Notes under the pieces: generated by a model
Told to the model about the DNA's origin: nothing
Seen by the model: only the letters and a program-made list of their open reading frames with translations
The model's database searches: none
Translations under genes and position numbers: made by a program
In this document: in pieces, positions 4,886-18,849 of the stretch
How the letters are laid out: every line of letters begins with the position of its first letter
Numbering within the stretch: the first letter of the stretch is position 1
Assembly: GCF_014842975.1 (NCBI RefSeq)
Contig: NZ_JACYXK010000021.1
Coordinates: 124,001 to 188,000 of the forward strand
Length of the DNA stretch: 64,000 nucleotides
Origin: Rhodanobacter sp. DHB23
Lineage (GTDB): Bacteria > Pseudomonadota > Gammaproteobacteria > Xanthomonadales > Rhodanobacteraceae
Reading direction: 5' to 3'

Positions 4886-5275
4886 ATGCGTGCAGCGCTC
4901 CTGATCCTGCTCGGCCTCGCCATCGGCGTGATCGGCACGTCCCAAGTGATGAATGCGCTCGCCGCACGCAACCCCATGCCCAAGGCGGTGATGCACACGC
5001 TGGGCTACCACGCGGGCGAGCTGAAACGGGCGGTGAAGTCGCAGCAGTGCGACGTGGCGAAGATCCGGCAGCACCTGCTGCGCCTGCAGTCCACCGCCAC
5101 CGACATCGTGCCCACGTTCGGCATCGCCGAGCCGGGCTTCAGCGACGACGCGAACAAGCTGCAGACCGCCCTGCAGCAGGCCGTCGCCGCCGCGCCCGCC
5201 ACCTGTGCGGCACTGACCACGGCGCTCAAGCCCGTGGGCGAGGCTTGCCAGGACTGCCACCAGAAGTACCGCTGA
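4886..5275 (+). CDS. Cytochrome c'-like (class II) haem protein
   Basis: 129-residue exported protein with one c-type haem site, CQDCH, only five residues before the end (CQDCHQKYR). A C-terminal CxxCH in a small helical protein is the signature of class II cytochromes (c' and c556). Residues 4-24 form a single hydrophobic segment that could be a signal peptide or membrane anchor. Two further cysteines (CDVAK, ATCAAL) could form a disulfide. TTATGCT at 4851-4857 resembles a -10 box, which argues against the in-frame ATG at 4853 as the start. Cytochrome c' proteins bind NO or transfer electrons in the periplasm; the role here is unknown. Confidence 0.75.
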   Translation: MRAALLILLGLAIGVIGTSQVMNALAARNPMPKAVMHTLGYHAGELKRAVKSQQCDVAKIRQHLLRLQSTATDIVPTFGIAEPGFSDDANKLQTALQQAVAAAPATCAALTTALKPVGEACQDCHQKYR

Positions 5276-5427
5276 GGCGCTACGCGCAACGTGCCCGGGG
5301 CGCCGGCAAGCGCCCCAAGGCACTCCTCGCCTGCGAAAAGCCCCCGAAAGACTGAAGAAACCGCCTCCTGCCACCCTGTCCCGGTGAAGTGCCGCCACTG
5401 CGGCCTGATTTCCCCCGGGTACCCCAC

Positions 5428-6264
5428 GTGATCCAACAGACCGATTTCTTCTTCGAAGGCGGCCGCAGCGGCGTGCTGCTGATCCACGGCCTCACCGGCA
5501 CGCCGATGGAAATGAAGCTGCTCGGCAAGGGCCTGAACCGCGCCGGCTACACCGTGCACGGCATGCAGCTGGCCGGCCACTGCGGCAACGCCGACGACCT
5601 GCTCGCCACCGGCTGGCGCGACTGGTACGCCAGCGTGGAGCAGGCCGCCGACGCGCTGCGCGAAAAGGTGGACCACCTGTTCGTGGGCGGCCTGTCGATG
5701 GGCGCCCTGCTCTCGCTCAAGCTCGCCGCCGACCGCCCCGGCCAGATCGCCGGCGTGGGCGTGTACGGCGCCACCTTCCGCTACGACGGCTGGGGCATCC
5801 CGCGCATGGCGCGCATGTCCTTCATGCTGCCGCTGCTGAAGAAGCTAGGCATCGGCCGCCACCGCAGCTTCATGGAGCAGCCGCCCTACGGCATCCGCGA
5901 CGAGCGCCTGCGCGCGCAGGTCAGCGCCGCGATGCTGGGCGGCGACAGCGCCGCCGCCGGCCTGCCCGGCAACCCGTGGTATTCGCTGGCCGAGATGTAC
6001 GAACTGTCGGCCACGGTGCGCCGCCAGCTTTCACAGGTCACCGCGCCCTGCCTGGTGGCGCACGCCAGCGAGGACGACGTGGCCAGCGTGAAGAACGCCG
6101 AGCTGGTGATGCGCGAGGTGAGCGCCCCGGTCGAACTGCTGTTGCTGGACGACAGCTACCACATGATCACCATCGACAAGGAACGCCGCACCCTGATCGA
6201 GCGCTCCGCCGCGTTCTTCGACCGCGTCGCCGCGGCCGACATCTGCCAGCGCGTTGCCGCCTGA
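5428..6264 (+). CDS. Alpha/beta hydrolase, carboxylesterase type
   Basis: Predicted serine esterase. Numbering from the GTG at 5428 (278 residues), the oxyanion region is LLIHGLTGTP (17-26). The nucleophile elbow is GLSMG with Ser90. The acid is probably Asp216 or Asp217 in HASEDDVASV, and the base is His245 in DDSYHMITID. This layout matches the bacterial carboxylesterase/monoacylglycerol-lipase group related to Geobacillus Est30. No signal peptide is seen. A GTG at 5389 would extend the protein by 13 residues; neither start has a good ribosome site. The last base of its stop coincides with the first base of the palindromic element at 6264-6530. Confidence 0.8.
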   Translation: MIQQTDFFFEGGRSGVLLIHGLTGTPMEMKLLGKGLNRAGYTVHGMQLAGHCGNADDLLATGWRDWYASVEQAADALREKVDHLFVGGLSMGALLSLKLAADRPGQIAGVGVYGATFRYDGWGIPRMARMSFMLPLLKKLGIGRHRSFMEQPPYGIRDERLRAQVSAAMLGGDSAAAGLPGNPWYSLAEMYELSATVRRQLSQVTAPCLVAHASEDDVASVKNAELVMREVSAPVELLLLDDSYHMITIDKERRTLIERSAAFFDRVAAADICQRVAA

Positions 6265-6530
6265 GAGCCTGCCCATGGCTTCCAAGTGCATCGCGTTGTC
6301 ATCGAGTGGCCGTCAGGTGGTAGGGCGTGGCGCTGGCCTGACTGGCCGTCAGGTCAAGCCACGCGCTGCCGCATGGCGGCCACTCGGTGACAACCCGCAG
6401 GGCCGGGGCTGTTTGCCCGCATCCCTGCGTCATCACTCGGTCGTGGACAGACGTCCACTTCCTCGCTCTTCCTTGGCCTGCGCGCAAACAGCTCCCGGCG
6501 CGAAGCGCCTGGAAGCCATGGGCCGGCTCT
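6264..6530. repeat. 267-bp palindromic element with 26-bp terminal inverted repeats and two long hairpins
   Basis: The entire gap between the esterase and the transporter pair is one ordered structure. The ends (6264-6289 and 6505-6530) are inverted repeats matching at 23 of 26 positions; the core word is GCCCATGGCTTCCA. Inside are two large hairpins. In the first, 6295-6315 pairs with 6374-6394 (19 of 21), 6325-6331 with 6358-6364, and CCTGAC at 6337 with GTCAGG. In the second, 6402-6420 pairs with 6480-6499 around an inner GTGGAC-AGAC-GTCCAC stem at 6443-6458. No convincing ORF lies within it. A non-autonomous palindromic mobile element or a structured RNA or leader would both fit. Confidence 0.75.
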
Positions 6531-6531
6531 G

Positions 6532-6906
6532 ATGCCGACGGGTTCCATCACTCCGCTCGTCGCCCTGCTGTGGGTGTTGAACGTGGTGCTCGACACCGGC
6601 GGCCAGCTCGCCTTCAAGGCCGCTGCCGGCGATCCCGCGGCCGGCGACGGGTTGGCCCGCTGGCTGTACATGGCGCGGCGGCCGTGGATCTGGCTGGGCA
6701 TCGCCAGCTACGTGATCGAGTTCCTGATCTGGATCGCCTTCCTCTCGCTGCTGCACCTCTCCGAGGCGATCCTGCTCGGCTCGATCAACATCGTGGCGAT
6801 CATGGTGGCCGGGCATTTCCTGTTCGGCGAGAAGCTCACCCGCATGCGCGTGGCCGGCATCCTGCTGGTGACGCTGGGCGTGCTGATCGTGGGAGTCGGC
6901 GGATGA
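6532..6906 (+). CDS. Half-size DMT/EamA-type membrane transporter, subunit 1
   Basis: 124-residue membrane protein with four predicted helices (about 7-27, 48-70, 73-95, 103-122). It is the size of one SMR or ArnE/ArnF subunit and half an EamA protein. The second helix pair ends with SEAILLGSINIVAIMVAGHFLFGEK, the typical EamA pattern of a glycine-rich helix then an E-K pair. Its stop overlaps the start of the next gene, which encodes a similar but distinct half. The two probably form a heterodimer like the undecaprenyl-linked aminoarabinose flippase ArnE/ArnF, although sequence identity to ArnE/F is not obvious by eye. The whole 5' leader is supplied by the palindromic element, and no ribosome site is visible. 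Confidence 0.75.
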   Translation: MPTGSITPLVALLWVLNVVLDTGGQLAFKAAAGDPAAGDGLARWLYMARRPWIWLGIASYVIEFLIWIAFLSLLHLSEAILLGSINIVAIMVAGHFLFGEKLTRMRVAGILLVTLGVLIVGVGG

Positions 6907-7304
6907 AGCGCGGCTGGTTCTACCTGATCGGTTTCCTGATCCTGGTGATGTTCGACTCGGTCGGCGCGATCAGCTTCAAGTACGCCGGCATGCACGCGCT
7001 GCCGGTGGAATTCAACGTCGCATGGCTGCTGCGCCTGTTCGGCAAGCCGTGGGTCTACGGCGCCGTGATCGGCTACGTCGGCGCGTTCTTCACGTGGATG
7101 ACCCTGCTCAAGCACGCGCCGATCGGCCCCGCCTTCGCCGCCTCGCACCTGGAGGTGGTGTCGGTGATGCTGCTGTCGATCTGGCTGTTCAACGAGCCGC
7201 TCAGGTTGCCGCACGTGCTGGGCGCCATCGCCATCGTCGCCGGCATCGTCTGCCTCGGTTTCGCCGAGAGCCGCGAGCACGTGCCGGAAGCAGGCGAGAC
7301 CTGA
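6903..7304 (+). CDS. Half-size DMT/EamA-type membrane transporter, subunit 2
   Basis: 133-residue partner of the preceding gene, with ATGA overlap (ATG 6903). Four helices are predicted at about 6-22, 47-67, 76-97 and 105-124. The motif AFAASHLEVVSVMLLSIWLF followed by NEPL is the EamA family signature in the third helix and loop. The two halves differ in sequence, as expected for an obligate pair with opposite membrane orientation. The next gene is a DegT-type aminotransferase 23 bp downstream, which suggests transport of an amino-sugar-modified lipid carrier. That is inference from neighbours; drug efflux by an SMR-like pair is the alternative. Confidence 0.78.
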   Translation: MKRGWFYLIGFLILVMFDSVGAISFKYAGMHALPVEFNVAWLLRLFGKPWVYGAVIGYVGAFFTWMTLLKHAPIGPAFAASHLEVVSVMLLSIWLFNEPLRLPHVLGAIAIVAGIVCLGFAESREHVPEAGET

Positions 7305-7327: not shown

Positions 7328-8539
7328 ATGCCGCCCAGTCGCCGCCACGAACTGCCCCCCACCGCCGGCCTGCCACTGACGCTGGCCGATCTGCGTCCCG
7401 GCAGGGCCTCGCTGGCCGCCGACGTCGCGGCGCAACTCGGCACGCCGCCGCTGGCGCTCACCTGCTCCGGCACCGCCGCGCTGCTGATCGCGCTGGCCGC
7501 GCTGCGCGAACTCAAGCCCGCGCGCCGCCGCGTGGTGATGCCCGCCTACACCTGCCCGCTGGTGCCGCTGGCCGTGCACCAGGCCGGATTGGAAGCCGTG
7601 CCGTGCGACCTGCGTCCCGGCCACTACGACATGGATCCGCACGCGCTGCGCGCAGCCTGCGACGAGCGCACGCTGGCGATCCTGCCCACCCACCTCGCCG
7701 GCCGCGTGGCCGACGTGGACGATGCGCTGGCCGTGGCCAACAACGTGGGCGCCCACGTCATCGAGGATGCCGCGCAGGCGCTGGGCGCGCGGCGCGACGG
7801 CGGCAGCGTGGGCCTGGCCGGCGACCTCGGCTTCTTCAGCCTCGCCGCGGGCAAGGGCCTGTCGATCTACGAGGGCGGCCTGCTCGTCGCGCGCGATCCC
7901 GGACTGCGCGACCGGCTGGCGCACACCGCCAGGCGCATCGCGCCGTTCAAGCCTGGCTGGGAACTCCGCCGCAGCACGGAACTGCTGGGCTACGCCGCGC
8001 TGTATCGCCCGCGCGGCCTGCGCCTCGCCTACGGCAACCCGCTGCGCAGCGCGCTGCGTCGTGGCGATCCGGTGGCCGCGGTAGGCGACGATTTCTCGCT
8101 GCCGCTGCCGCTGCATGCGGTGGGTCGCTGGCGGCAAGCCGTCGGCGCGCACGCGGCCGCGCGACTGCCCGCTTTCATCGAACAATGCACGGCGCGTGCG
8201 CAGCGCTACCTCCCGCGCCTGCGTGCCATCCCCGGCGTCGACGTGCTGGACGACCCCGCCGGCACGCACGGCACATGGCCGTTCTTCATGCTGCTGCTGC
8301 CCGACCAGCGCCGTCGCGACGCCGCGCTGGAACAGCTCTGGCAGGCTGGCCTGGGCGTGAGCCGCCTGTTCATCCACGCCCTGCCCGACTACGCCTACCT
8401 GCGCGGCATCGTGCCCGCCGCCGGCGTGCCGAACGCCCGCGACTTCGCCGCGCGCAGCCTCACCATCGGCAACAGCGCGTGGCTGACGGATGCGGACATG
8501 GATGCGGTCTGCGGCGTGCTGGAAGCCACCGCACGCTGA
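7328..8539 (+). CDS. DegT/DnrJ/EryC1/StrS-family PLP aminotransferase
   Basis: 403-residue fold-type I PLP enzyme. Family features in order: TCSGTAALLIALAAL (substrate and phosphate loop), VVMPAYTCPLVPLAV, ILPTHLAGRVADVDD, VIEDAAQALGARR (Asp that contacts the pyridine nitrogen), then FFSLAAGKGLSIYEGG with Lys176 as the likely internal aldimine lysine. DegT-family members transaminate keto-sugar nucleotides during synthesis of surface sugars or antibiotics. The spacing after Lys176 is compact, and the C-terminal third (about 200-403) is less family-like, so the substrate may not be a nucleotide sugar. It follows the transporter pair in the same direction and probably forms an operon with it. 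Confidence 0.8.
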   Translation: MPPSRRHELPPTAGLPLTLADLRPGRASLAADVAAQLGTPPLALTCSGTAALLIALAALRELKPARRRVVMPAYTCPLVPLAVHQAGLEAVPCDLRPGHYDMDPHALRAACDERTLAILPTHLAGRVADVDDALAVANNVGAHVIEDAAQALGARRDGGSVGLAGDLGFFSLAAGKGLSIYEGGLLVARDPGLRDRLAHTARRIAPFKPGWELRRSTELLGYAALYRPRGLRLAYGNPLRSALRRGDPVAAVGDDFSLPLPLHAVGRWRQAVGAHAAARLPAFIEQCTARAQRYLPRLRAIPGVDVLDDPAGTHGTWPFFMLLLPDQRRRDAALEQLWQAGLGVSRLFIHALPDYAYLRGIVPAAGVPNARDFAARSLTIGNSAWLTDADMDAVCGVLEATAR

Positions 8540-8564: not shown

Positions 8565-9713
8565 TCAAGGCGGCGTAGGTATCAGCTCGACCTTGGCATC
8601 GTCGTACAACGTAGCCATCAAGGTACGTCCATCCGGCAGGAACGACACCTCGCGCGGGAACCCGGAAGCCGCCGCCGTCAGCATCTGCTTCGGCACGCCA
8701 TCCACCAGCGTGAGTCCGGCCACCTGTCCGGCCGCCGCGGCGCCGAAACGCGAAGACAGGGCCGCCCACACCTGCCTGCCATCCGGCCGCACCGCCACGC
8801 CCACCGGACTGGTGCCGATGGCGAAGCTCGCGTAAGCGGACCTGCCGGATGCCGACAGCAGGTCGCCGGCACGGAACTCCAGCAGCGCGCCGCTGCCGCG
8901 CGCGGTCACCCAGATGGTGTCACCCGCAGGAGCCACGGCCACCCGCACCGGATTGCAACCGGCCGCCACCACCGACTGCACGGCCTTGCGCGGCGCGCTG
9001 GCGACCTTGGCGACGTCGATGCGGAACAGCAAACCGGGCGGATGCATCCGCTCGTCCTTCGTCTCCGGCGTGCATGTCGCATCCAGGCCGGCGGTGCGCG
9101 GGGCGATTTCGCTGGTGGCGTACAACCATTGGCCATCCGGCGATTGCGCCAGGCCGACGGGCGCCGGCGCCAGCGGAATGCGCCCCGCCAGCGCGTCCCC
9201 GCGAAAGCCGCTGCCGGCCGCCTTCGCGAGATCGAACACGCTGATCGCATGCGCGAGTTCCTGGCTGACGAAGAGCAGGCGACCATCGTTGCTGACCAGT
9301 GCATAGACCGCCTGCGAACCCATGCCGTCGCTCAACTCGCCCAGCAGCGGATGGCCCTGCGCGTTTTCCAGCTGGGCCACGTCGAACACGTCCGCACCCT
9401 TGCGTTCGGCGACGGCCAGCAATCTGCCGTCGTGCGACAGCGATTCCCCGTAGGCCGGCGCGGGCATCGGCACGGTGTGATCCAGCTGGAACGTGCCACC
9501 CTGGTTGCGCAGCACGGCCACCGCGCCATGCTGGCGATCGATGGTGAGCGACACGAACGCCCAGCAACCATCGGCGCTGGACAAGGCCGAGAAAGGATGG
9601 CCCGGCACCGCCACCCGCGCCGCCTGCGTGGGCATCGTGCAGGCCGCGGCCTGCGCCGTCCCCGCAAAAGCCGGCACCAGCATCCCGAACAGCCAGAAAA
9701 GCACGTGTTTCAT
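8565..9713 (-). CDS. Secreted YVTN/YncE-type beta-propeller protein
   Basis: 382-residue exported protein. The start MKHVLFWLFGMLVPAF is a signal peptide with cleavage near AQA-AAC (about residue 23). The rest is a run of about seven 40-50-residue repeats built around SPDGQWLYAT, SNDGRLLFVS, RPDGRQVWAA and LPDGRTLMAT, the pattern of 7-bladed propellers of the YncE/lactonase superfamily. No catalytic residues can be assigned. Family members are periplasmic scaffolds or lactonases of unknown substrate. The gene converges on the aminotransferase and stands upstream of nothing in its own operon. Confidence 0.78.
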   Translation of the reverse strand: MKHVLFWLFGMLVPAFAGTAQAAACTMPTQAARVAVPGHPFSALSSADGCWAFVSLTIDRQHGAVAVLRNQGGTFQLDHTVPMPAPAYGESLSHDGRLLAVAERKGADVFDVAQLENAQGHPLLGELSDGMGSQAVYALVSNDGRLLFVSQELAHAISVFDLAKAAGSGFRGDALAGRIPLAPAPVGLAQSPDGQWLYATSEIAPRTAGLDATCTPETKDERMHPPGLLFRIDVAKVASAPRKAVQSVVAAGCNPVRVAVAPAGDTIWVTARGSGALLEFRAGDLLSASGRSAYASFAIGTSPVGVAVRPDGRQVWAALSSRFGAAAAGQVAGLTLVDGVPKQMLTAAASGFPREVSFLPDGRTLMATLYDDAKVELIPTPP

Positions 9714-9811
9714 GACTTTCCCCGAACGCCTGTCCATGGCCTCTCCATGGTCCGCGTACTTCAGCCAAACCCGGCGCGCCCGTCAACGCGCACGCCTTCG
9801 CGCAGGCGGAA

Positions 9812-10693
9812 TCAGCCGCCGCGCTCGGCGATGGCGCCAAGCAGCCCGAGGTTCAACGCATGCTGCTGCGCCTGCCAGCCGGCGACCAGCGCGGGATCGA
9901 TCTCGGGCTGCTCGTCCATCGCGGAGAGCCTGCGCTTCCACCACGTGCTGTAGCGGTAGTGCGAGACCTCGCCGTTGATGTCGCTGCCGGCCAGCCCGTT
10001 GCGCAGGCTGCCGATCAACGCCAGCGCGTGGTCGAGCTGCAGGCGGCCCTGGTCCCAGTTGGTGCGCGCCACCTCGGGCGCGAACGCGTCCTTGTCGATG
10101 GTGAGGTAGGTGGGCAGGGTTTGCGTGCGCTGGTGCCCGACGAAGGCATCGACCAGCGCGTCCGGCGTGTCGAAGCCGCGGAACGCGCGCGCGATGCCCA
10201 GCCGGCGCGACCAGGCGGTGTCCACGCCCATGCTCCAGTACGTGAGCTTGCCGCGCAGCAGCGGCGTGAGGTAGTTCTCCCACGCATGGCCGGCACCGAT
10301 GTCGTGCGAGGTGATGCCCAGCACGTGCACGTGGTCCACGAAGGGCAGCGCGGCCACGCGGCGTACCCAGGAGCCGCAGTGCACGCCGAACGGGAAGCGC
10401 ATGTTGTCGGGGTGGTTGTCCAGTACCACCACCTGGATGGACGTGGCCGGCTTGAGCCGCGCGATCAGCGGCCAGCTGAGGTGGTGGAAGTCGCCCGAGC
10501 CGGTGAACACGGTGCCGTACTGCGCGGGCAACTGCGCGTCCAGCAAGGCACGGAAGCGGCGCATGGTGGCGAGCGAACAACCGAAGCGGATCGCTTCCTG
10601 CCATTCGGCCAGCGGCAGCACGAGGCCGTCGGGCAGTGGGCCTACCGAGCTGTCGATGTCGAGCACTACCGGGCGATGCGCGGAGGCGTTCAT
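9812..10693 (-). CDS. Divergent arginase-fold (ureohydrolase-like) protein
   Basis: 293-residue protein that I place in the ureohydrolase superfamily from its metal motifs. GDFHH at 67-71 stands for the family GGDHS motif, DNHPD at 92-96 for DAHxD, and TIDKD at 198-202 for the SxDxDxxDP motif. Arginase, agmatinase and formiminoglutamase bind two Mn ions with these residues. The rest is unlike known arginases, and the start VVLDIDSSVGPLPDG is distinctive. ATG 10693 was chosen because upstream codons lie in an intergenic repeat. It is next to, and in the same direction as, the FemAB-like gene. Substrate unknown. Confidence 0.62.
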   Translation of the reverse strand: MNASAHRPVVLDIDSSVGPLPDGLVLPLAEWQEAIRFGCSLATMRRFRALLDAQLPAQYGTVFTGSGDFHHLSWPLIARLKPATSIQVVVLDNHPDNMRFPFGVHCGSWVRRVAALPFVDHVHVLGITSHDIGAGHAWENYLTPLLRGKLTYWSMGVDTAWSRRLGIARAFRGFDTPDALVDAFVGHQRTQTLPTYLTIDKDAFAPEVARTNWDQGRLQLDHALALIGSLRNGLAGSDINGEVSHYRYSTWWKRRLSAMDEQPEIDPALVAGWQAQQHALNLGLLGAIAERGG

Positions 10694-10710
10694 GGGCACC
10701 TCGATGCATA

Positions 10711-10903
10711 GCCCCTCTCCCGCCGGGAGAGGGGTTGGGGTGAGGGTTCGGCCAGTGCGGAATGCTGCGCTCTGCCCGAACCCTCGCCCGCCTGGATTCG
10801 CGCCATCCATGGCGACTCACCCCTGCGGGGCCGGCTTCGCCGTTCCGCCGGCGCTCCAGCGCCTGCAGGTCGGCACCCTCTCCCGGAGGGAGAGGGATTC
10901 ACC
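10711..10903. repeat. Dispersed CCTCTCCC/GGGAGAGG palindromic repeat cluster
   Basis: The intergenic stretch opens with CCCTCTCCCGCCGGGAGAGG and ends with CCCTCTCCCGGAGGGAGAGG, with GGTGAGGGTTCGG and CCGAACCCTCGCCCG facing each other in between. The same building blocks recur at 13619, 14622, 46777 and 50256, so this is a member of a dispersed REP-like family rather than a gene part. No ORF with coding character lies in it. Confidence 0.75.
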
Positions 10904-10939
10904 AGGAAAGGTCGGGGCAAGCAATGGGCGACAGGGAAA

Positions 10940-12010
10940 TCACTCATCGTCCTTCTCCGCGGATTCCTGCCAGCTGCGGTCGCTCTCGAAATGCCCGCCC
11001 AGCCTGCGCAGCAGCGCGCGCAGCAGGGGATTGCGTGCGTACACCGCATGGCGGGTGAAGGTCATGCTGGCGCCGAGGAAGGATTTCACTTCCGGGTCGG
11101 TCCAGCCGGCCACGTAGTGTGTCAGCCCGCGTTCGCTCGCATAGCCCAGGTTGTGCATCCAGCTCACGAAGTACAGGTTGTGCTCGCGCGCCTCGGGATA
11201 GGCGAAGCCGATGTATTTGTCGACCAGCTTGCCGCCGTGTTCGTAGCAGAGGTTCCAGCCGATCAGCCTGCCTTCGTGGCGGTAGACGAACACCACGCCG
11301 CCGCTGCCCGCGTCCTGCAGCAGCAGGCGGAAGTAATCCAGGCTCAGGCGATCGAAGTGGATCTCGCTTTGCGCGTACACGTTGTCGAACAGCGCGTAGT
11401 ACGCGGCCAGCACGGCCTCGTCGCGGAAGCGCACGTCGCCGGTGCGCACGACCTCGATGTCGAGGTCGGCGCGCGAACGCAGCTTGCGGCGGATGTTCTT
11501 CCGGCGGCTGTAGCTGAGCTTCGCCAGATACTCGTCGTCCGAGGCGAAGTCGATCGGCACCCAGGCCAGCGCCTGCCCCTCCAGCAGCACGAAGCCCTCG
11601 GCCGCGCAGGCCTCGGCGAAGGCGCGGGCGCAGGCGTTCTCCGCGTCGCTCAGCAGCGGCGAATCCTGCGCGATGTCCTTCACGATGAGCAGCTTGCACT
11701 CGCGACCCCAGGCGGCCTTCAAGCCTCGCGCCAACCCGGCCGGCGACACGTCCTGCGGCAGCGGCGCGTATTCGGTCACCGTGCTGCCGGCGAAGCGGGT
11801 GCGCCAGCGCAGCAGGCGGCTCCAGTACCGGTACAGCGGCAGCCCGGCCACGCGCCTGCGCAGTTCGTCGTCCGCCGTGGTCAGCAGGTCGAACGGCGCC
11901 ACGAAGCCCGGCATGCCCTGCGGCGAATACCCGGCCGTGAAGCCGATCGGCGGCTGCGCCATGAATGCCGCCAGCAGCGCGCCCGGTTCGAGTTGCGAAA
12001 TGAAAGGCAT
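10940..12010 (-). CDS. FemAB-like (GNAT-fold) acyltransferase
   Basis: 356-residue protein resembling the peptidoglycan biosynthesis/recognition FemAB-like family (tandem GNAT folds that use aminoacyl-tRNA or acyl donors). Recognisable parts are KLSYSRRKNIRRKLRSRADL (about 185-204), VYAQSEIHFDRLSLDYF, and GWNLCYEHGGKLVDKYIGF, the usual C-terminal GNAT strand. No signal peptide or membrane helix is seen. The ATG at 12010 is 93 bp from the divergent acyl carrier protein gene, so the two sets may share a control region. By analogy with FeeM-FeeL and NodA-NodF, it may take an acyl group from that carrier and transfer it to an amine. That is inference. Confidence 0.68.
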   Translation of the reverse strand: MPFISQLEPGALLAAFMAQPPIGFTAGYSPQGMPGFVAPFDLLTTADDELRRRVAGLPLYRYWSRLLRWRTRFAGSTVTEYAPLPQDVSPAGLARGLKAAWGRECKLLIVKDIAQDSPLLSDAENACARAFAEACAAEGFVLLEGQALAWVPIDFASDDEYLAKLSYSRRKNIRRKLRSRADLDIEVVRTGDVRFRDEAVLAAYYALFDNVYAQSEIHFDRLSLDYFRLLLQDAGSGGVVFVYRHEGRLIGWNLCYEHGGKLVDKYIGFAYPEAREHNLYFVSWMHNLGYASERGLTHYVAGWTDPEVKSFLGASMTFTRHAVYARNPLLRALLRRLGGHFESDRSWQESAEKDDE

Positions 12011-12103
12011 GAGTAAGCGAGTTTGCCTAGACTGTACGGGCCAAGCTTGGCCGGCACACCTTGCACCGGCCTTCCATTGTCGCCCGCCACCAAGGATCCC
12101 GTC

Positions 12104-12376
12104 ATGACCGGAACGACCCAGCAGCAAGTGTTCGAGATCATCGCCAAGCAGGCCAAGGTCGACGTGGCGAACGTCACGCCCGAGTCCACGCTGAAGGATC
12201 TGGGCGTCGCCTCGCTGGAGGCCATCGAGCTGATCTTCGACATCGAGGAGCACTTCGACATCCACTTCCCGGAACAGCAGGGCGCCAACTTCGACAGCGA
12301 CACCGCGCAGAGCCTGGTCGACGCCGTGCAGAAGGCGCTGGACGAGAAGGCCGCCGAAGGCGAAGGCGGCCAGTAA
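12104..12376 (+). CDS. Dedicated acyl carrier protein
   Basis: 90-residue acyl carrier protein separate from the housekeeping AcpP. It has the four-helix pattern and the phosphopantetheine serine at Ser37 in LGVASLEAIELIFDIEEHF. The usual DSL is ASL, so the Asp before the Ser is replaced by Ala, which may affect which transferase activates it. The C-terminus is charged (DEKAAEGEGGQ). AAGGA at 12091-12095 precedes ATG 12104. The stop TAA and the next ATG share one base (TAATG), coupling it to the ketosynthase. Such pairs serve specialised lipids, as NodF-NodE do for Nod factors. Confidence 0.88.
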   Translation: MTGTTQQQVFEIIAKQAKVDVANVTPESTLKDLGVASLEAIELIFDIEEHFDIHFPEQQGANFDSDTAQSLVDAVQKALDEKAAEGEGGQ

Positions 12377-13608
12377 TGCCCACCATCGAGACCCGCCGCG
12401 TCGTCATCACCGGCATGGGCGCGATCAGCCCGCAGGGCGTGGGCGCCCGGGCGCTGTGGCACGGCCTGAGCGAAGGACGCAGTGCGATCGGCCCGCTGCG
12501 CCACAAGGACAGCGAGGTGCTGCGCGTGAAGATCGCCGCGCAGGTGCCGGACAGCTTCGACCCGGCCACCGGCATCGACGAACGCACCCTGCCCCTGCTC
12601 GACCGCACCTCGGAATTCGCGCTGCACGCGGCGCGCGAGGCGATCGCGCATTCGGGCATCGACTTCAGCCGCGACGGCCTGGGCCTGCGCACCGCGGTGA
12701 TCGTGGGCACCGGCGTGGGCGGCGAGACCACCCAGGACGAACAGAGCCGCCGGCTTTACGCGGAAAAGGCCAGCCGCACCCATCCGCTCACCATCGTGCG
12801 GCTGATGACCAACGCCTCGGCCAGCCAGATCAGCATCGCCTACGGGCTGCGCGGCGCCACCTATGCGGTGGCCAGCGCCTGCGCCTCGGCCAACCACGCG
12901 GTGATCCAGGCGGCGCAGATGATCCGCTACGGCATGGTCGACGCGGCCGTCACCGGCGGCACCGAGGCCTGCCTCAGCTACGGCGCGCTGCGCGCCTGGG
13001 AAGCGATGCGCGTGCTGTCCGACGACACCTGCCGCCCATTCAGCGCGAACCGCCGCGGCCTGGTGCTGGGCGAAGGCGCCGGCATCTTCGTGCTGGAATC
13101 GCTGGAGCACGCGCGGGCGCGCGGCGCCACCATCCTCGCCGAACTCGCCGGCACCGGCATGAGCGCGGACGCCAGCGACATCGTGATGCCCAGCGCCGAC
13201 GGCGCCGCCTCCGCGATGCGCCAGGCGCTCGCCGAGGCCGGGCTGAATCCCGAGGACGTGGACTACATCAACGCCCACGGCACCGGCACCCAGGCCAACG
13301 ACAGCACCGAGACGCGCGCGATCCGCCTCGCCTTCGGCGCGCATGCCGACAAGCTCGCGGTGTCGTCCACCAAATCCATGCACGGCCATGCGCTGGGCGC
13401 CTCCGGTGCGCTGGAGCTGGTGGCCGCGATCGGCGCGCTGCGCGAGAACGTGGTGCCGCCCACCGCCAACCTGGACAAGCCCGATCCCGCCTGCGATCTC
13501 GATTACGTGCCGAACACGGCGCGCGAGATGCCGGTGCGGGCGGTGCTCAGCAATTCGTTCGCGTTTGGCGGGTTGAACGCCGTGCTGGCGTTGAAACGGG
13601 CTCCGTAA
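12376..13608 (+). CDS. FabF/NodE-type beta-ketoacyl-ACP synthase
   Basis: 410-residue condensing enzyme that extends an acyl chain by malonyl-ACP decarboxylation. All catalytic residues are present: Cys169 in ASACASANH, His301 in NAHGTGTQAND, Lys333 and His336 in TKSMHGHALGASG. The C-terminal NSFAFGGLNAVL is the usual family end. The length and full Cys-His-His set indicate an active elongating enzyme, not a chain-length factor. It is translationally coupled to the preceding ACP gene (one-base overlap) and has its own dedicated carrier, so it probably serves a special acyl product rather than bulk fatty acid synthesis. Confidence 0.9.
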   Translation: MPTIETRRVVITGMGAISPQGVGARALWHGLSEGRSAIGPLRHKDSEVLRVKIAAQVPDSFDPATGIDERTLPLLDRTSEFALHAAREAIAHSGIDFSRDGLGLRTAVIVGTGVGGETTQDEQSRRLYAEKASRTHPLTIVRLMTNASASQISIAYGLRGATYAVASACASANHAVIQAAQMIRYGMVDAAVTGGTEACLSYGALRAWEAMRVLSDDTCRPFSANRRGLVLGEGAGIFVLESLEHARARGATILAELAGTGMSADASDIVMPSADGAASAMRQALAEAGLNPEDVDYINAHGTGTQANDSTETRAIRLAFGAHADKLAVSSTKSMHGHALGASGALELVAAIGALRENVVPPTANLDKPDPACDLDYVPNTAREMPVRAVLSNSFAFGGLNAVLALKRAP

Positions 13609-13618
13609 TCCCGCCTTC

Positions 13619-13661
13619 CGCCCCTCTCCCGTACGCGGGAAAGGGGCTCGCGGAGAGGGGC
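13619..13661. repeat. Dispersed CCCTCTCCC/GGAGAGGGG repeat
   Basis: CCCCTCTCCCGTACGCGGGA followed by AAAGGGG and GGAGAGGGG forms a small imperfect palindrome 11 bp after the ketosynthase stop. It belongs to the family seen at 10711 and 50256. In the rest of the 13609-13980 gap I see no gene and no clear terminator. Confidence 0.6.
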
Positions 13662-13980
13662 TCCCACTCCGCGTTTTCGCAAGTTCCAAAGCGGTTTCGT
13701 GCACCTGCCGAGGTGCAACCCATGTCCTGGCACACCTGTTACCTATGTCTCCGGTCCATACAGTAGCCAAGAGAAAATAGCCAAAGCGAAACAGCAGCCC
13801 ACGGCTCGCTGCCTTTGAAACTTTTTCCCTGCACGCGAAGACTTTGCTCAAGCGCCGATCCTGCCGGCTGGAGCCGGCCACAGGATTGATCACGACGCGC
13901 CATCAGCCACGCTGATTGCTTGCGGCGAACTTTCCTGTTGGGCACACTCGGACGAGTGCGCCCCAGGGAGGAAGTGCGTG

Positions 13981-14451
13981 ATGAGAGCACCACTTGGATG
14001 GTTGGTCCTGGCACTCGGGCTGGCTTGCGTACCGACGGCAAGCGCTGGCGACATCTACAAATGCATGGTCAACGGAAGCGCGGTTTACCGCGATCAACCG
14101 TGCTCGACGGTCAAACCCGACGAGGGCAAGTTAGCCGTTCGCGATACCCAGTCGGACGACAGCGCAACGGGGAACAGCCCGGCGGCCTTGATGCAGGGCA
14201 TTCGCAGACTCACCGAACGAGAACGCCAACTGGATGCGCAACGCGACAGGGCGCAGGCCCTGCTCAGGGTACGCATGGCGAACGTCACCGACGATCACGC
14301 AAGGCAGCGGGAAATTGCCGCGTTCAAGAGTGACTGGCGGGATCGCTTCGCGGAAAACCGGCGTCAGCGCGAACTACTGCTTGATCAGCTAAGGAAACTT
14401 TGCCCGGGCGGCGCCTCAAGCCGTTCGGGTCGAACGACCTGCAACAAATAG
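13981..14451 (+). CDS. DUF4124-domain exported protein
   Basis: 156-residue protein with a signal peptide (residues 1-22, ending near ASA-GDIYKC). The DUF4124 signature DIYKCMVNGSAVYRDQPC follows directly at about 24-41; two cysteines there and two near the C-terminus (LCPGG, TTCNK) may form disulfides. The middle (about 65-130) is charged and helical, rich in Arg, Glu and Gln, and may be a coiled coil. GGAGGAA at 13967-13973 supports ATG 13981 over the GTG three bases earlier. The function of DUF4124 proteins is unknown; they are common periplasmic proteins in Xanthomonadales. The local base composition is slightly less GC-rich than its neighbours. Confidence 0.78.
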   Translation: MRAPLGWLVLALGLACVPTASAGDIYKCMVNGSAVYRDQPCSTVKPDEGKLAVRDTQSDDSATGNSPAALMQGIRRLTERERQLDAQRDRAQALLRVRMANVTDDHARQREIAAFKSDWRDRFAENRRQRELLLDQLRKLCPGGASSRSGRTTCNK

Positions 14452-14797: not shown

Positions 14798-16198
14798 TCA
14801 GCCCTTCTTGGCCTTGGTCAGCAACTGGTCCAGCAGCGAGATCGCCAGGTCGATCTCTTCGTGCGTGATGTCCAGCGACGGCGCGAACGTGATCACGTTC
14901 TTGTACCAACCGCCCACGTCGAGGACGAGGCCGATCTTCTTGCCGTTGTGCTCCAGGTCGCCGGCGAGGCCGATGTCGACCATCTTGTCGAGCAGCGCCT
15001 TGTTCGGCGTGAAGCCGTCGTCGGTGCAGATCTCGGCGCGCAGCGCGAGGCCGAGGCCGTCGACGTCGCCGATTTCCTTGTGCTTCTTCTGCAGCTCGCG
15101 CAGACCTTCGAGGAAGTGCGCGCCCTTCTTCGGCACGGTGGTCTCGTAGTCCAGCTCGTAGCCCATCTTGATCACTTCCAGACCCAGCGAGGTGCCCAGC
15201 GGGTTGGAGTTGAAGGTGGAGTGGGTGGAGCCCGGCGGGAACAGGGTCGGGTTGATCAGCTCTTCGCGTGCCCACAGGCCGGACAGCGGGTTCAGACCGT
15301 TGGTCAGCGCCTTGCCGAACACGACGATGTCCGGCGTCACGCCGAAATTCTCGATCGACCACAGCTTGCCGGTGCGCCAGAAGCCCATCTGGATCTCGTC
15401 CGACACCATCAGGATGCCGTACTTGTCCAAGACCTTCTTCAAGCCCTTGAAGAAATTCATCGGCGGCAACACGTAGCCGCCGGTGCCCTGGATCGGCTCG
15501 ACGTAGAACGCGGCGTATTCGCACTGGCCGGTCTTGGGATCCCACACGCCGTTGTATTCGGTCTCGAACAGCCGCTCGAACTGGCGCACGCAGCTGTCGG
15601 AATACTCTTCAGCCGTCATGCCCTTGGGGCGGCGGAACGGATACGGGAACGGCAGGAACATCGCGCGCTCGCCGAAATGGCCGAAGCGGCGGCGATAGCG
15701 GTAGCTCGAAGTGATCGACGAGGCGCCCAGCGTGCGGCCGTGGTAGCCGCCCTCGAAGGCGAACATCAGGCTCTTGCCGTTGCTGGCGTTGCGCACCAGC
15801 TTCAGCGAATCCTCGATCGCCTGCGCGCCGCCGACGTTGAAGTGCACGCGGCCGTCGAGGCCGAACTTCTTCTTCGCGTCCAGCGCGATGGTCTTGGCCA
15901 GCTCGATGCGGGTCTGGTGCAGGTACTGGCTGGCGACCTGCGGCAGCACGTCGATCTGCTTCTTCAGCGCGTCGTTGAGGCGCTTGTTGCCGTAGCCGAA
16001 ATTGACCGCCGAGTACCACATCTGCAGGTCGAGGAACGGCGTGCCGGCCGTGTCGAACATGTAGCTGCCTTCGCCGTGGCGGAAGATCTTCGGCGGGTCC
16101 ACGTAATGCACGGTGTCGCCGAAGGAGCTGTACTTGGCCTCGTCGGCGAGCAGTTGCGCGTCGTCGATGAAACCGACGGCGTTCTTGTCGATGTTCAT
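14798..16198 (-). CDS. Class III PLP aminotransferase
   Basis: 466-residue fold-type I aminotransferase of the acetylornithine/diaminobutyrate class. Visible motifs are FNVGGAQAIEDSLKLVRNA, FEGGYHGRTLGASSIT, EPIQGTGGYVLPP, VSDEIQMGFWRTG (the Asp for the PLP nitrogen), and DIVVFGKALTNGLNPLSG with the Schiff-base lysine. The N-terminus (SSFGDTVHYVDPPKIFRHGEG) is longer than in ArgD. The first in-frame conserved start is ATG 16198. It follows a HAD phosphatase gene after 54 bp in the same direction, so a transaminase plus phosphatase pathway step is likely. The amine substrate cannot be read from the sequence. Confidence 0.82.
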   Translation of the reverse strand: MNIDKNAVGFIDDAQLLADEAKYSSFGDTVHYVDPPKIFRHGEGSYMFDTAGTPFLDLQMWYSAVNFGYGNKRLNDALKKQIDVLPQVASQYLHQTRIELAKTIALDAKKKFGLDGRVHFNVGGAQAIEDSLKLVRNASNGKSLMFAFEGGYHGRTLGASSITSSYRYRRRFGHFGERAMFLPFPYPFRRPKGMTAEEYSDSCVRQFERLFETEYNGVWDPKTGQCEYAAFYVEPIQGTGGYVLPPMNFFKGLKKVLDKYGILMVSDEIQMGFWRTGKLWSIENFGVTPDIVVFGKALTNGLNPLSGLWAREELINPTLFPPGSTHSTFNSNPLGTSLGLEVIKMGYELDYETTVPKKGAHFLEGLRELQKKHKEIGDVDGLGLALRAEICTDDGFTPNKALLDKMVDIGLAGDLEHNGKKIGLVLDVGGWYKNVITFAPSLDITHEEIDLAISLLDQLLTKAKKG

Positions 16199-16252
16199 GG
16201 TCGGGTTCCGGGGAACGGTCTTGAGGGATGCAGCAGACAGCAAGGCGGCCGA

Positions 16253-16951
16253 TCAGGCCGCCGCTGCTTCGTGATAGCGCGCGTGGTGCACCAGGCTGCC
16301 GTCGAGCAGGCGCGGCAGGTATTCCAGCGCGTCCTCGAAGCCGGTGATCGGCATGTACGGGATGCCGGCGGCGCGGCAGTGCTCGATCAGGCGGTGCTTG
16401 GCGAACACGAAGTCCACGCGGTCGGCCGCGCAGAAATCCGAGGCGCCGTCGCCGATCAGCAGGGTCTTGGCGCCCGTGGTGCGGGCCTGCGCCACGCAGG
16501 CGCACTTGCAGGTGCCGCTGCGGCAACCCTCGGCCTGGAACGGCGAGGTGAGCTGCCACTGCTTCGGCGGCGTGGCGGGCGAAAGATGGTTGGCGGCCAG
16601 CGGCAGGTCGTCCAGGCCGTAGCGGCCCAAGATCTGGTGGATCGCGTAGTCGAGGCCGTCGCTGACGATGCGGATCGGCACGTTGAGTTCGCGCGCCTTG
16701 GCCACGAAGCCCGGGAAGGCGTGGTCGATCCACAGCTCGCGCAGGTGCTCGTCCAGCTCGGCGCGCGTCATCTGCAGCAGCTCGACCTGGCCCGACATGC
16801 ACTCGCGCGAGCCGATGCGACCGGCGCGCCAATCCTGCTCCAGCACTTCCCAGCCGGGACGGCCGAAGCGGTCGAGCAGCGAGTCGATCACGTCTTCGAC
16901 GGAAATGGTGCCGTCGAAATCACACAGAATGGTCCAGCCGGACGGGGACAT
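16253..16951 (-). CDS. HAD-IB phosphatase, MtnX/PHOSPHO-like
   Basis: 232-residue haloacid-dehalogenase-type phosphatase. Motif I is DFDGTISVEDV (Asp11 nucleophile, Asp13 acid), motif II lies at VSDGLDYAI, and motif III/IV is LLIGDGASDFCAADRVDFVF. The cysteine cluster GCRSGTCKCACV at about 148-159 is characteristic of the MtnX and PHOSPHO branch, which removes phosphate from small metabolites such as diketo-methylthio-phosphopentane or phosphoethanolamine. No methionine-salvage genes are near, so an MtnX role is not supported by context. It is first in a two-gene unit with the class III aminotransferase. Confidence 0.8.
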   Translation of the reverse strand: MSPSGWTILCDFDGTISVEDVIDSLLDRFGRPGWEVLEQDWRAGRIGSRECMSGQVELLQMTRAELDEHLRELWIDHAFPGFVAKARELNVPIRIVSDGLDYAIHQILGRYGLDDLPLAANHLSPATPPKQWQLTSPFQAEGCRSGTCKCACVAQARTTGAKTLLIGDGASDFCAADRVDFVFAKHRLIEHCRAAGIPYMPITGFEDALEYLPRLLDGSLVHHARYHEAAAA

Positions 16952-17086
16952 CGGGAATCCATACCTATCAGCGATGACAGCGAGGGTAGAAACCCTGCCT
17001 TTCGGCGCCCTTTCCCCAACGGGGGCTAAGCCGGCAGCCCCGCACCACGGCAAATCGTACGCCCGGCCCCTTATGCTGCCGCCCCC

Positions 17087-17887
17087 ATGACCCGCCCATC
17101 CCTGCCTGCGGACCTGTTCCGTCGCCTTGCCCTGTCCGCCTGTCTGCTCATCGGCCTGCCGTGGGCGCGGCATTGCCGTGCCGACGACGGCGACCCGCCG
17201 ACCTACGCCTTCGGCGCCGGCATGGAGCGCATGCCGGCCTGGCCCGGCGCGCAAGGCTCGCGCAACCAGCCGATCCCCTACGTCGACATCGAGATCCCCG
17301 ACCATCTCAGCCTGTCCACGCTGGACGGACTGCAACTCGACCTGATCGGCGGCCCGGTGCTGCACGGCGGCTTCTACGGCGACTACCAGTGGGGCCGCGA
17401 CAGCGGCGACCTCGGCATGCTGCGCGGCAGGATCGCGCCGCTGTCGCCGCGCCTCACCGCGGGCGGCTACCTGGAGTGGCAGCTCACCAGGCAGATCGAC
17501 GTGGGTACCGACCTCAGCCACGACATCGATGGCGCCGGCGCCTATCTCGACGTCTACGGCGAGTGGGACCTGCCGCCAGTCTGGCTGCTGCAGCATTCGT
17601 TCGAGCTGCACTGGCAGGCGATGAACGGCGCGGCGATGAACCGCTTCTTCGGCATCAGCCCCGCCCAGGCGGGCGCACTGGCCGTGCCCGCATGGCACCC
17701 CGGCGCCGGCAGCCAGTCGGCCACGCTCGAATACGACCTGTTCGTGCCCACCAGCCAGCACACCGGCCTCGCGCTGGCGCTGGACTGGGAACGCCTGCTG
17801 GGCGATGCCGGCAACAGCCCGCTGGCGACACGGTTCGGCTCGCGCAACCAGCCATCCGAATCAGTGGCCTTCGTGTACCACTTTTGA
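17087..17887 (+). CDS. MipA/OmpV-family outer membrane beta-barrel protein
   Basis: 266-residue outer membrane protein. A signal peptide ends near HCRA-DDGD (about residue 32). The mature part consists of alternating short amphipathic strands. Typical MipA features are YAFGAGMERMPAWPGAQGSR, then GGPVLHGGFYGDYQWGRDSGD and a C-terminal ESVAFVYHF whose final Phe is the BAM recognition residue. MipA of E. coli bridges MltA and PBP1B, but most family members are of unknown role. The TTATGCT at 17071 resembles a -10 box just before the start. The gene is divergent from the HAD phosphatase. Confidence 0.8.
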   Translation: MTRPSLPADLFRRLALSACLLIGLPWARHCRADDGDPPTYAFGAGMERMPAWPGAQGSRNQPIPYVDIEIPDHLSLSTLDGLQLDLIGGPVLHGGFYGDYQWGRDSGDLGMLRGRIAPLSPRLTAGGYLEWQLTRQIDVGTDLSHDIDGAGAYLDVYGEWDLPPVWLLQHSFELHWQAMNGAAMNRFFGISPAQAGALAVPAWHPGAGSQSATLEYDLFVPTSQHTGLALALDWERLLGDAGNSPLATRFGSRNQPSESVAFVYHF

Positions 17888-17953: not shown

Positions 17954-18280
17954 TCACCTGTCGTCGCGCGTCCAGATCGCGCCCTCTTCCACGCGCACGG
18001 GGAAGCAGGCAATCGGCTCGTACGCCGGCGGGCACGTCACCGCGCCCGTGCGCAGGTCGAAGCGCGCACCGTGGCGCGGGCATTCCACCTCGAAACCATG
18101 CACCTCGCCGCCGGCGAGGTCGCCGCCGTCGTGCGTGCAGACGTCCTCGACGGCGTAGAGGTCGCCGTCGATGTTGTACACGGCGATGGGCGTGTCGCCG
18201 TCGAACACCACCCTGAACTCGCCCGGCAGCAGTTCGCCGCGCGTACCCACGCGCACCCAGCCTTCGCTCGCCAGGCTCAT
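17954..18280 (-). CDS. Rieske-type [2Fe-2S] ferredoxin
   Basis: 108-residue soluble Rieske protein. The cluster ligands are Cys48 and His50 (CTHDGG) plus Cys67 and His70 (CPRHGARF). A small stand-alone Rieske protein of this length is the ferredoxin component type found with non-haem oxygenases, NirD and some suf clusters. No oxygenase is adjacent. The ATG at 18280 overlaps the stop of the upstream GNAT gene (ATGA), so the two are co-translated. It probably donates electrons to an unlinked oxygenase or serves in Fe-S metabolism. Confidence 0.88.
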   Translation of the reverse strand: MSLASEGWVRVGTRGELLPGEFRVVFDGDTPIAVYNIDGDLYAVEDVCTHDGGDLAGGEVHGFEVECPRHGARFDLRTGAVTCPPAYEPIACFPVRVEEGAIWTRDDR

Positions 18281-18813
18281 GCGAGCTCCTTGCGCAGCAC
18301 TTCGAAGCGCAGGTCGTCGCGCCGCGGGATGCCGAAACGCTCGTCGCCGTAGGGGAAAGGCTGGAATTCGCCGGTGCGGCGGTAGCCGCGGCGCTCGTAG
18401 AAGGCGATCAATTCGGCGCGCTGCACGATCGTCGTCATATGCATCGCGCGGCAGTCCCACGCGTCACGCACGATGCGCTCGGCCTCGGCCATCACGGCCT
18501 TGCCCAGCCCACCGCCCTGCTGCAAGGGATCCACTGCAAACAAACCGAAGTAGCCGGAGTCACCCTGCCGCTCGATGTGGCAACAAGCCAGCAGCACGCC
18601 ATCGCGCTCAGCCAGGAGAATCACGCTGTACGGCTGATCCAATCGCACTGAAACATCGGCGGCGTCCGTACGCTGGCCACCCAGCAAATCGGATTCGGTC
18701 GTCCAGCCGCGACGACCGGAATCGCCGCGATAAGCGGACTCGACCAGGGCCACGATGGCGGGAACATCGGCCGCGACGGCCGGGCGGAAGCGGAGAGTGG
18801 CAGGTTCGGACAT
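18277..18813 (-). CDS. GNAT family N-acetyltransferase
   Basis: 178-residue acetyltransferase with the GNAT pattern: LRFRPAVAADVPAIVALVESA at the N-terminus, the acetyl-CoA loop FAVDPLQQGGGLGKAVMAEA at about 105-124, and ELIAFYERRGYRRTGEFQPF at the C-terminal strand. ATG 18813 gives the best family start. It is the first gene of a pair with the Rieske ferredoxin through a four-base overlap. The substrate is unknown. Confidence 0.85.
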   Translation of the reverse strand: MSEPATLRFRPAVAADVPAIVALVESAYRGDSGRRGWTTESDLLGGQRTDAADVSVRLDQPYSVILLAERDGVLLACCHIERQGDSGYFGLFAVDPLQQGGGLGKAVMAEAERIVRDAWDCRAMHMTTIVQRAELIAFYERRGYRRTGEFQPFPYGDERFGIPRRDDLRFEVLRKELA

Positions 18814-18849
18814 GCGCGGCATGTTAGAGCCTGCGCCCCTTGCGCGCAT

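Follow-up and report, generated by a model that had tools for sequence, protein, structure and literature searches.

A NodF-NodE-type acyl carrier protein and ketosynthase in a modular locus of Rhodanobacter and its relatives that may make an acylated amine lipid

Do an acyl carrier protein (ACP) and its ketosynthase (KS), when they lie beside a FemAB-like transferase and an arginase-fold protein, form a dedicated system that builds an acyl chain and moves it onto an amine, or are these genes neighbours by chance? The question is raised by a stretch of 64,000 nucleotides from Rhodanobacter sp. DHB23 (contig NZ_JACYXK010000021.1, positions 124,001 to 188,000; here the window), part of a 3.97-Mb genome (G000, contig C27), in which an earlier reading of the sequence alone, the original prediction, had proposed such a quartet. 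We find that the FemAB-like and arginase-fold genes (Fem and Arg) are a tight pair, that ACP and KS are a replaceable module of the NodF-NodE kind, and that both stand in a wider locus. The core of this locus is a class III pyridoxal-phosphate (PLP) enzyme (AT3), an MtnX-like phosphatase (HAD) and an alpha/beta hydrolase (ABH), often with two EamA-type transporters. Our working interpretation, plausible but held with some reserve, is that the locus would make and export an N-acylated, perhaps also O-acylated, amine lipid with an acyl chain supplied by the NodFE-type pair.

Linkage and modularity of the locus

All four genes of the quartet are present at the places first given, as coordinates and a Pfam scan confirm. 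The ACP gene (12104..12376, plus strand; PP-binding, 38.6 bits) has a NodF-like position before KS and encodes 90 residues, with Ser37 in an ASL motif as originally described; this serine is kept in 82 of 82 homologous stretches. Its TAA stop codon shares base 12376 with the ATG of the KS gene (12376..13608, plus strand; ketoacyl-synt, 175 bits), which is the one-base overlap that had been noticed. The catalytic residues of KS had been listed as Cys169, His301 and His336; the first two are right, but the second histidine is His338, within KSMHGHALGA, by the residue numbering of FabF. Fem (10940..12010, minus strand) is divergent from the pair, with the expected 93 bp (12011-12103) between its ATG and that of ACP, and Arg (9812..10693) comes after it on the minus strand. 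What the quartet left out are AT3 (14798..16243), HAD (16253..16951), a DegT-type aminotransferase, the EamA pair and ABH, which belong to the same locus.

Relatives were taken from an order sample of 121 genomes, drawn from the window's order, and from a scan of genome contigs for Arg, which confirmed at least 545 relatives among at least 590 pattern matches and of which 80 loci were kept. Together with 21 neighbourhoods from the order sample these make 101 loci, all selected for Arg. Some of them overlap in genomes (L035 and L099, L038 and L108, and L027 and L085 each apparently come from one genome), so that locus counts are not independent, and 17 of the 101 are under 15 kb, so that presence counts in the 80- and 101-locus tallies are lower bounds. 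Gene calls in the fetched loci came from a GC-frame heuristic, which misses genes such as the KS of L029.

Fem and Arg lie on the same strand and within 400 bp of each other in 101 of these 101 Arg-selected loci. KS is found within 2.5 kb of Fem in 71 loci, of which 57 have the two on different strands, the window arrangement, and 14 have them co-directional; 77 loci have matches to both ACP and KS. A tblastn tally of the 80 scanned loci, several of them short, gave KS in 64, ACP in 64, DegT in 63, EamB in 61, EamA in 59, ABH in 59, AT3 in 50, HAD in 46 and the outer-membrane protein MipA in 23. Within the order sample, Arg occurs in 22 of 121 genomes and a close Fem (E below 1e-120) in the same 22, with weaker GNAT matches in 22 more; AT3 (E up to 1e-100) is present in 22 genomes, 21 of them shared with Arg, and window-type KS (E up to 1e-120) in 16, of which 15 are shared with Arg and G060 is the exception. 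Fisher p values for this co-occurrence are below 1e-12, relatedness being ignored. The Arg profile finds 17 of 398 Pseudomonadota genomes, one of them weakly (G175, E 5e-4, partial). AT3 (E up to 1e-100) is carried by 26 genomes, among which are all 16 with a clear Arg match; if G175, with no AT3 match, is counted, the figure is 16 of 17.

This linkage, the shared 22 genomes and the number of confirmed Arg relatives show that the grouping is more than coincidence. The idea of a spare FabF-like pair beside unrelated genes could draw on the 7 of the 22 Arg genomes of the order in which no KS rises above threshold; conserved linkage, a KS group apart from FabF and a separate housekeeping FabF leave it barely credible, and linkage and co-occurrence led us to discard coincidence as an explanation. 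The quartet as a closed unit was also rejected, since Fem-Arg, ACP-KS and the core each occur apart. Fem and Arg are inseparable in our loci, but ACP and KS are both absent from 24 of the 101 (some of these loci being short), so Fem does not always depend on the ACP-KS pair, and KS is also found without Fem and Arg. The original prediction had held that genomes keeping ACP-KS without the other two genes would make the grouping coincidental. This is borne out in part, as G060, L173, L174, L175 and L179 keep KS without Fem and Arg. Yet KS is accompanied by the same core in all of them, beside it in the four loci and in G060 split between two places (L163 and L164), which argues that the grouping is modular and not coincidental.

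The core itself emerges from the AT3 neighbourhoods of all ten AT3-only genomes among the 398 Pseudomonadota. HAD, AT3 and ABH are found beside KS in L173, L174, L175 and L179 (L174 and L175 being short contigs), with the start of a GNAT protein in the ABH frame in L172 and L177, and with two-component matches in L176. One cut locus, L181, has HAD, a partial AT3 and two-component matches, and L178 holds a lone AT3 of 54% identity. Because HAD-AT3-ABH recurs across the AT3-only loci, it is the core to which both halves of the quartet are added as modules.

The order in the window (ABH, EamA, EamB, DegT, Arg-Fem, ACP-KS, AT3-HAD, MipA) recurs in relatives with altered order and orientation. On the X. 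sacchari plasmid NZ_CP010410 the genes run HAD, AT3, KS, ACP, GNAT, arginase, DegT, two EamA and alpha/beta hydrolase, after which the locus continues with HlyD, ABC, TolC and a two-component system. Six copies on plasmids of Rhizobium CIAT894, Phyllobacterium, Sinorhizobium B11 and Agrobacterium combine HAD, AT3, ABH and GNAT with two EamA, a distant arginase and two-component genes; ACP-KS and DegT are absent from the stretches shown. A fatty acid desaturase is present in four of the six, three of which also have a cyclopropane fatty acid (CFA) synthase-like gene, and two Agrobacterium copies have neither. In the Delftia and Comamonas loci L124 and L126 a CFA-synthase-like gene stands beside Arg, together with DegT and without ACP-KS. 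The occurrence of such genes on Rhizobiaceae plasmids whose locus lacks ACP-KS fits acyl-chain tailoring as the variable part of the locus. On the Bartonella HY406 plasmid (L128:12888-15410), AlgX-like and MBOAT genes come after AT3-GNAT-arginase and might provide another partner for acylation. In Roseomonas the class III enzyme is a different one (23% identity), and HAD, arginase, ABH, GNAT, a DegT and an EamA pair are present. In G352, putatively Pseudomonas-like, the genes are split between two places, Fem-Arg-EamA-EamB at L153 and HAD-AT3-ABH at L180, the latter with a second type of GNAT.

These copies bear on where the product would go. HlyD, ABC and TolC matches beside several of them, and the location of copies on plasmids in Agrobacterium, Rhizobium, Bartonella and X. 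sacchari, might point to a small natural product that is secreted, either a signal or an antibiotic of the fatty-amide or lipo-polyamine kind, and not to a membrane lipid. We consider this improbable: no nonribosomal peptide synthetase, type I polyketide synthase or acyl-ligase gene was found among the scanned window-locus proteins, the small EamA pair and MipA/OmpV suggest placement in the envelope, and an annotated phosphoethanolamine-lipid A transferase gene lies beside one copy. In this copy, from A. fabrum 2788, the transferase gene and one annotated as diacylglycerol kinase come after the locus (L162:20357-22392), a hint of an envelope-stress setting.

A ketosynthase of the NodE group

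Two KS trees were made from chosen subsets of loci, and one of them, of 35 rows, is described here. A branch with 100/100 support unites 17 cluster KSs, that of the window included, with 4 NodE-like and 2 Rhodobacterales KSs and excludes 8 FabF and 4 other KSs; within it the 17 cluster KSs make up one group at 85/94, and the window KS falls outside the NodE subgroup. Its identity is 51.5-54.8% to the NodE-like KSs and 40.6-43.5% to FabF. With TIGR03150, the FabF equivalog, it scores 457 bits, under the cut-off of 493.75, yet it passes the broader subfamily NF005589, and S. meliloti NodE behaves likewise with both models. The window genome has a separate housekeeping FabF (TIGR03150, 665.6 bits), which is 44% identical to the window KS. 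The trees and this separate gene led us to reject a spare FabF, and the likening of the ACP-KS pair to NodF-NodE in the original prediction is borne out by the fully supported branch, by the closer identity to NodE than to FabF and by an ACP gene directly before KS.

One of the NodE rows is S. meliloti pSymA 469919-471115, surrounded by open frames for a sulfotransferase, an ACP, a short-chain dehydrogenase/reductase (SDR) and two sulfate-activation proteins; the record is shown without annotation, and we take the series, with the KS after the ACP, to be nodH-nodF-nodE-nodG-nodP-nodQ. A second NodE-like KS sits within 2 kb of NodZ. On a Paracoccus ferrooxidans plasmid (L213:7458-10206) a KS of the same group and its ACP, in the same order as in the window, come directly after LpxD, which suggests a special lipid A acyl chain. 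That module has a lipid A enzyme in place of Fem, and no AT3, HAD or arginase-like gene is found among the annotated features shown. LpxD is annotated as an N-acyltransferase, and the partner of NodE, NodA, is one too. A NodE-group KS thus serves an N-acyltransferase in two other settings, and this supports an N-acylation role at the window locus.

In Nod factor synthesis the partners of NodFE are NodA and, as acceptor, a chitooligosaccharide (NodB, NodC). The window shares with it the adjacent ACP and KS, the KS lying in one fully supported group with pSymA NodE. Unlike the NodF-NodE setting, its neighbours are AT3, HAD, ABH, the EamA pair and the arginase-fold protein, and its transferase is of the PF13480/PF04339 families; Fem has no match to a NodA family in Pfam or NCBIfam, NodA, NodB and NodC not having been searched genome-wide. 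NodF is described as a specialized ACP (PMC9386255). In G313, whose locus lacks ACP-KS (L156), a NodE-like ACP-KS pair is nevertheless present on another contig (L195/L212).

The transferase, the arginase-fold protein and the core enzymes

Fem passes the Pfam cut-offs of PF13480 (Acetyltransf_6, 49.1 bits) and PF04339 (FemAB_like, 42.4 bits), and its AlphaFold model (pLDDT 90) has a double-GNAT fold with Foldseek E values down to 1.3e-11; no PDB sequence matches it at E up to 10. The best 27 Foldseek rows are FemX, MprF, lysyl- and alanyl-phosphatidylglycerol synthases (one set only putative) and aminoacyl-tRNA-dependent peptide synthases. Fem may therefore depend on aminoacyl-tRNA as MprF and FemX do and attach an amino acid to a lipid or an amine, in which case Arg would edit the residue, arginyl for example, and ACP-KS would serve some other step, such as ABH. 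Fitting this are those 27 matches, a conserved basic stretch around residues 169-178, the arginase-fold gene that adjoins Fem in all 101 loci and the 24 loci without ACP and KS. However, in those 27 rows the double-GNAT fold is shared at only 10-19% identity; a NodE-type KS lies within 2.5 kb of Fem in 71 of the 101 loci; and HfsK, which PMC5362036 discusses as an N-acyltransferase of unknown role, has an equal tandem-GNAT likeness to FemX. We regard aminoacyl-tRNA dependence as rather unlikely and prefer Fem as a candidate N-acyltransferase of the amine-lipid pathway.

Arg scores 20.8 bits with Pfam Arginase, just below the cut-off of 22 (a Rhizobium relative is above it), so its assignment also leans on AlphaFold fold matches and on eight kept His/Asp positions. 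The model (pLDDT 89) finds agmatinase as its best Foldseek match and, further down, arginase, guanidinobutyrase and metformin hydrolase in the PDB, at E 1.5e-6 and weaker and a TM score near 0.5. The eight positions, which we take to include the expected metal ligands, show no change in 134 of 134 homologous stretches, among which some genomes are represented more than once; at position 242, 103 of the stretches have Glu and 31 have Asp. By its modelled fold and its metal-binding His/Asp set Arg qualifies as a predicted member of the ureohydrolase superfamily. It shares these features with agmatinase, guanidinobutyrase and metformin hydrolase, and differs from them in its score under the Pfam cut-off, in having no PDB sequence match (E up to 10) and in the variable position 242.

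AT3 (minus strand; the first residues of its open frame may be non-coding) meets the class III aminotransferase profile (Aminotran_3, 236 bits) and has counterparts of 75-94% identity in 21 further genomes of the order. Its PLP lysine, Lys311, is kept in 94 of 94 stretches, as are Thr254 and Thr452. Among five PDB relatives column 254 holds Glu, Asp or Thr, the threonine being shared with 3fcr. Position 452 is presumably the site of the arginine that binds the substrate carboxylate in class III aminotransferases, the roles of both positions being our assumption. The two threonines suggest that AT3 may do something other than ordinary transamination of an alpha-amino acid, and they make a GABA or ornithine aminotransferase less likely. 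HAD (minus strand; Pfam HAD and Put_Phosphatase on 16253-16996, with an inferred start codon) is an HAD-IB phosphatase that matches MtnX in the PDB (2fea, 64 bits) and also resembles the PF06888 and PF12710 phosphatases.

On the other side of Arg, the DegT/DnrJ-type PLP aminotransferase (7328..8539, plus strand, ATG at 7328; DegT_DnrJ_EryC1, 153.5 bits) keeps its PLP lysine in 88 of 88 homologous stretches. It is preceded by two small EamA-type transporter subunits: EamA, which is ArnE-like (6532..6906, plus strand; Pfam EamA, 29.9 bits, with weak ArnE/ArnF matches), and EamB (6903..7304, plus strand; Pfam EamA, 32 bits, and Multi_Drug_Res at 19 bits, below its cut-off). DegT and the EamA pair resemble ArnB, ArnE and ArnF, which would fit a sugar-nucleotide pathway; we do not favour it, no other Arn-type match being found among the proteins scanned. 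Nor did the serine palmitoyltransferase family, a mark of a sphingolipid-type route, appear above cut-off among the scanned window proteins, the whole genome not having been searched.

ABH (5389..6264, plus strand, start codon uncertain; Hydrolase_4, 76 bits) is of the monoacylglycerol-lipase/carboxylesterase type, has monoacylglycerol lipases and LipS as its best PDB relatives, and is conserved beside EamA-EamB-DegT in relatives' loci. Its nucleophile is Ser in 94 of 103 stretches and Cys in 9. It is a possible acyltransferase, and PMC12493201 gives OlsI, an alpha/beta hydrolase, as a proven O-acyltransferase for ornithine lipid. The chain from ACP-KS could go to ABH, or through ABH to an amine made by AT3, with Fem-Arg as a later, separate decoration and no direct transfer from ACP to Fem. 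This alternative is consistent with the KS-bearing loci L173, L174, L175 and L179, which have AT3, HAD and ABH and no Fem or Arg match, with the nine stretches in which Cys replaces the Ser nucleophile, and with L172 (6863-8464) and L177 (from 2742), in which a single open frame holds ABH and the beginning of a GNAT protein, the nucleophile again being Cys (GLCAG). The shared frame of L172 stops before the rest of the GNAT protein, and that of L177 runs to the contig end. However, about 2 kb past the ABH of L173 lies a further protein with a GNAT domain (5085-6287), and L174 and L175 are short contigs, so that these loci may still have an N-acyltransferase; KS and Fem are, moreover, co-directional within 2.5 kb in 14 of the 101 loci. 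Delivery of the chain to ABH seems unlikely to us, and the amine-lipid interpretation with Fem as the putative transferase of the chain is developed below.

A possible amine lipid and its significance

The chemistry of this interpretation is inferred throughout, from gene families, linkage, the KS group, metal-ligand positions and fold matches. Judging by its phylogeny and pairing, the NodE-type KS would extend an acyl chain on its own ACP to give a special chain. The amine head group would be built from a precursor that carries a phosphate or keto group, by AT3 and the HAD phosphatase and, in loci that have it, DegT; a serinol or aminopropanediol head group, made by AT3 and the phosphatase from triose phosphate, is only an idea. 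Fem, by its fold, family and linkage, would join the acyl chain to the amine of the head group, and Arg, with its kept metal site and ureohydrolase fold, would hydrolyse a C-N bond of the guanidino or amidino type, or one like it, in either the acceptor or the product. ABH may add a second acyl group or trim one; the ABH-GNAT frames of L172 and L177 and the example of OlsI are in keeping with the interpretation as a whole. The EamA-EamB pair would carry the product across the inner membrane, to which many relatives add HlyD-ABC-TolC and a two-component system.

Several observations weigh against this interpretation. In addition to the 24 Fem-Arg loci without ACP and KS, G053 has Fem-Arg and ACP-KS without AT3 at E 1e-100, and G060 has AT3 and KS without Fem or Arg. 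L171 (G123) carries AT3, HAD, ABH, EamA and EamB, along with HlyD, ABC, TolC and two-component matches, without Fem-Arg and without ACP-KS; an ACP-like gene, KS, HAD, AT3 and ABH make up L173 and L174, and KS, HAD, AT3 and ABH make up L175 and L179, with no Fem or Arg match in any of the four. The distant cluster KSs join the window KS at only 85/94, and the KSs of L173 and L179, at 49.3 and 47.4% identity, are less like it than NodE is (51.5-54.8%), so that their placement beside the window KS is not firm. Column 452 of AT3 is Arg in 7vno, 9wqz and 9wrf and Gly in 3fcr, 2eo5 not being aligned there, and the nearest PDB folds of Fem are aminoacyl-tRNA-dependent transferases.

Among the closest known parallels are the ornithine-lipid type pathways (OlsBA, OlsF and OlsH-OlsI), in which, according to PMC12493201 and PMC11631085, an amine is N-acylated and then O-acylated, in one case by the alpha/beta hydrolase OlsI. 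Unlike these, the window locus has additional PLP enzymes, a phosphatase, an arginase-fold protein and transporters. OlsB/OlsA, OlsF and OlsH were not above cut-off among the matches listed for nine scanned window proteins (the whole genome was not searched), and OlsI reached only E 0.12 for ABH. Dedicated ACP-KS acyl systems are already known; the widespread locus that encloses this one is undescribed as far as the open-access literature shows, where no paper on the cluster was found, which is weak evidence as most subscription papers lie outside its reach.

Other genes around the locus are less constant. A MipA/OmpV outer-membrane protein (17087..17887, plus strand; Pfam MipA, 88 bits) is a frequent neighbour of uncertain membership, in 23 of 80 relatives' loci, and a small GNAT gene (18277-18849) flanks the locus in 19 of 80. 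A beta-propeller gene (8565-9737) lies between DegT and Arg in the window genome; neither it nor the gene at 13978-14451 appears in the tblastn tally of the 80 loci (E 1e-4), and we excluded both as locus parts. GC-rich imperfect repeats such as 'ctctcccgccgggagagggg', seen by eye between locus genes at 10710-10755, 10878-10900 and 13612-13665, are possibly REP-like elements.

More broadly, and with greater doubt, we suggest that the locus may represent an undescribed envelope amine-lipid class across Pseudomonadota, with a conserved AT3-HAD-ABH core, a FemAB-like/ureohydrolase pair that would finish the head group, and exchangeable acyl-chain builders. The builders would be a NodFE-type ACP-KS in many Rhodanobacteraceae and X. 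sacchari and a desaturase and/or CFA-synthase-like gene in some Rhizobiaceae, and NodFE would be one branch of an older, general module that provides a dedicated acyl chain for an N-acyltransferase. If this is true, an overlooked lipid or lipid-like compound would be common to Rhodanobacter, Dyella, Luteibacter, X. sacchari, Comamonas, and Rhizobium and Agrobacterium plasmids. NodFE would then belong to a larger family, that of acyl modules linked with N-acyltransferases, and the origin of Nod-factor acyl specificity would become testable.

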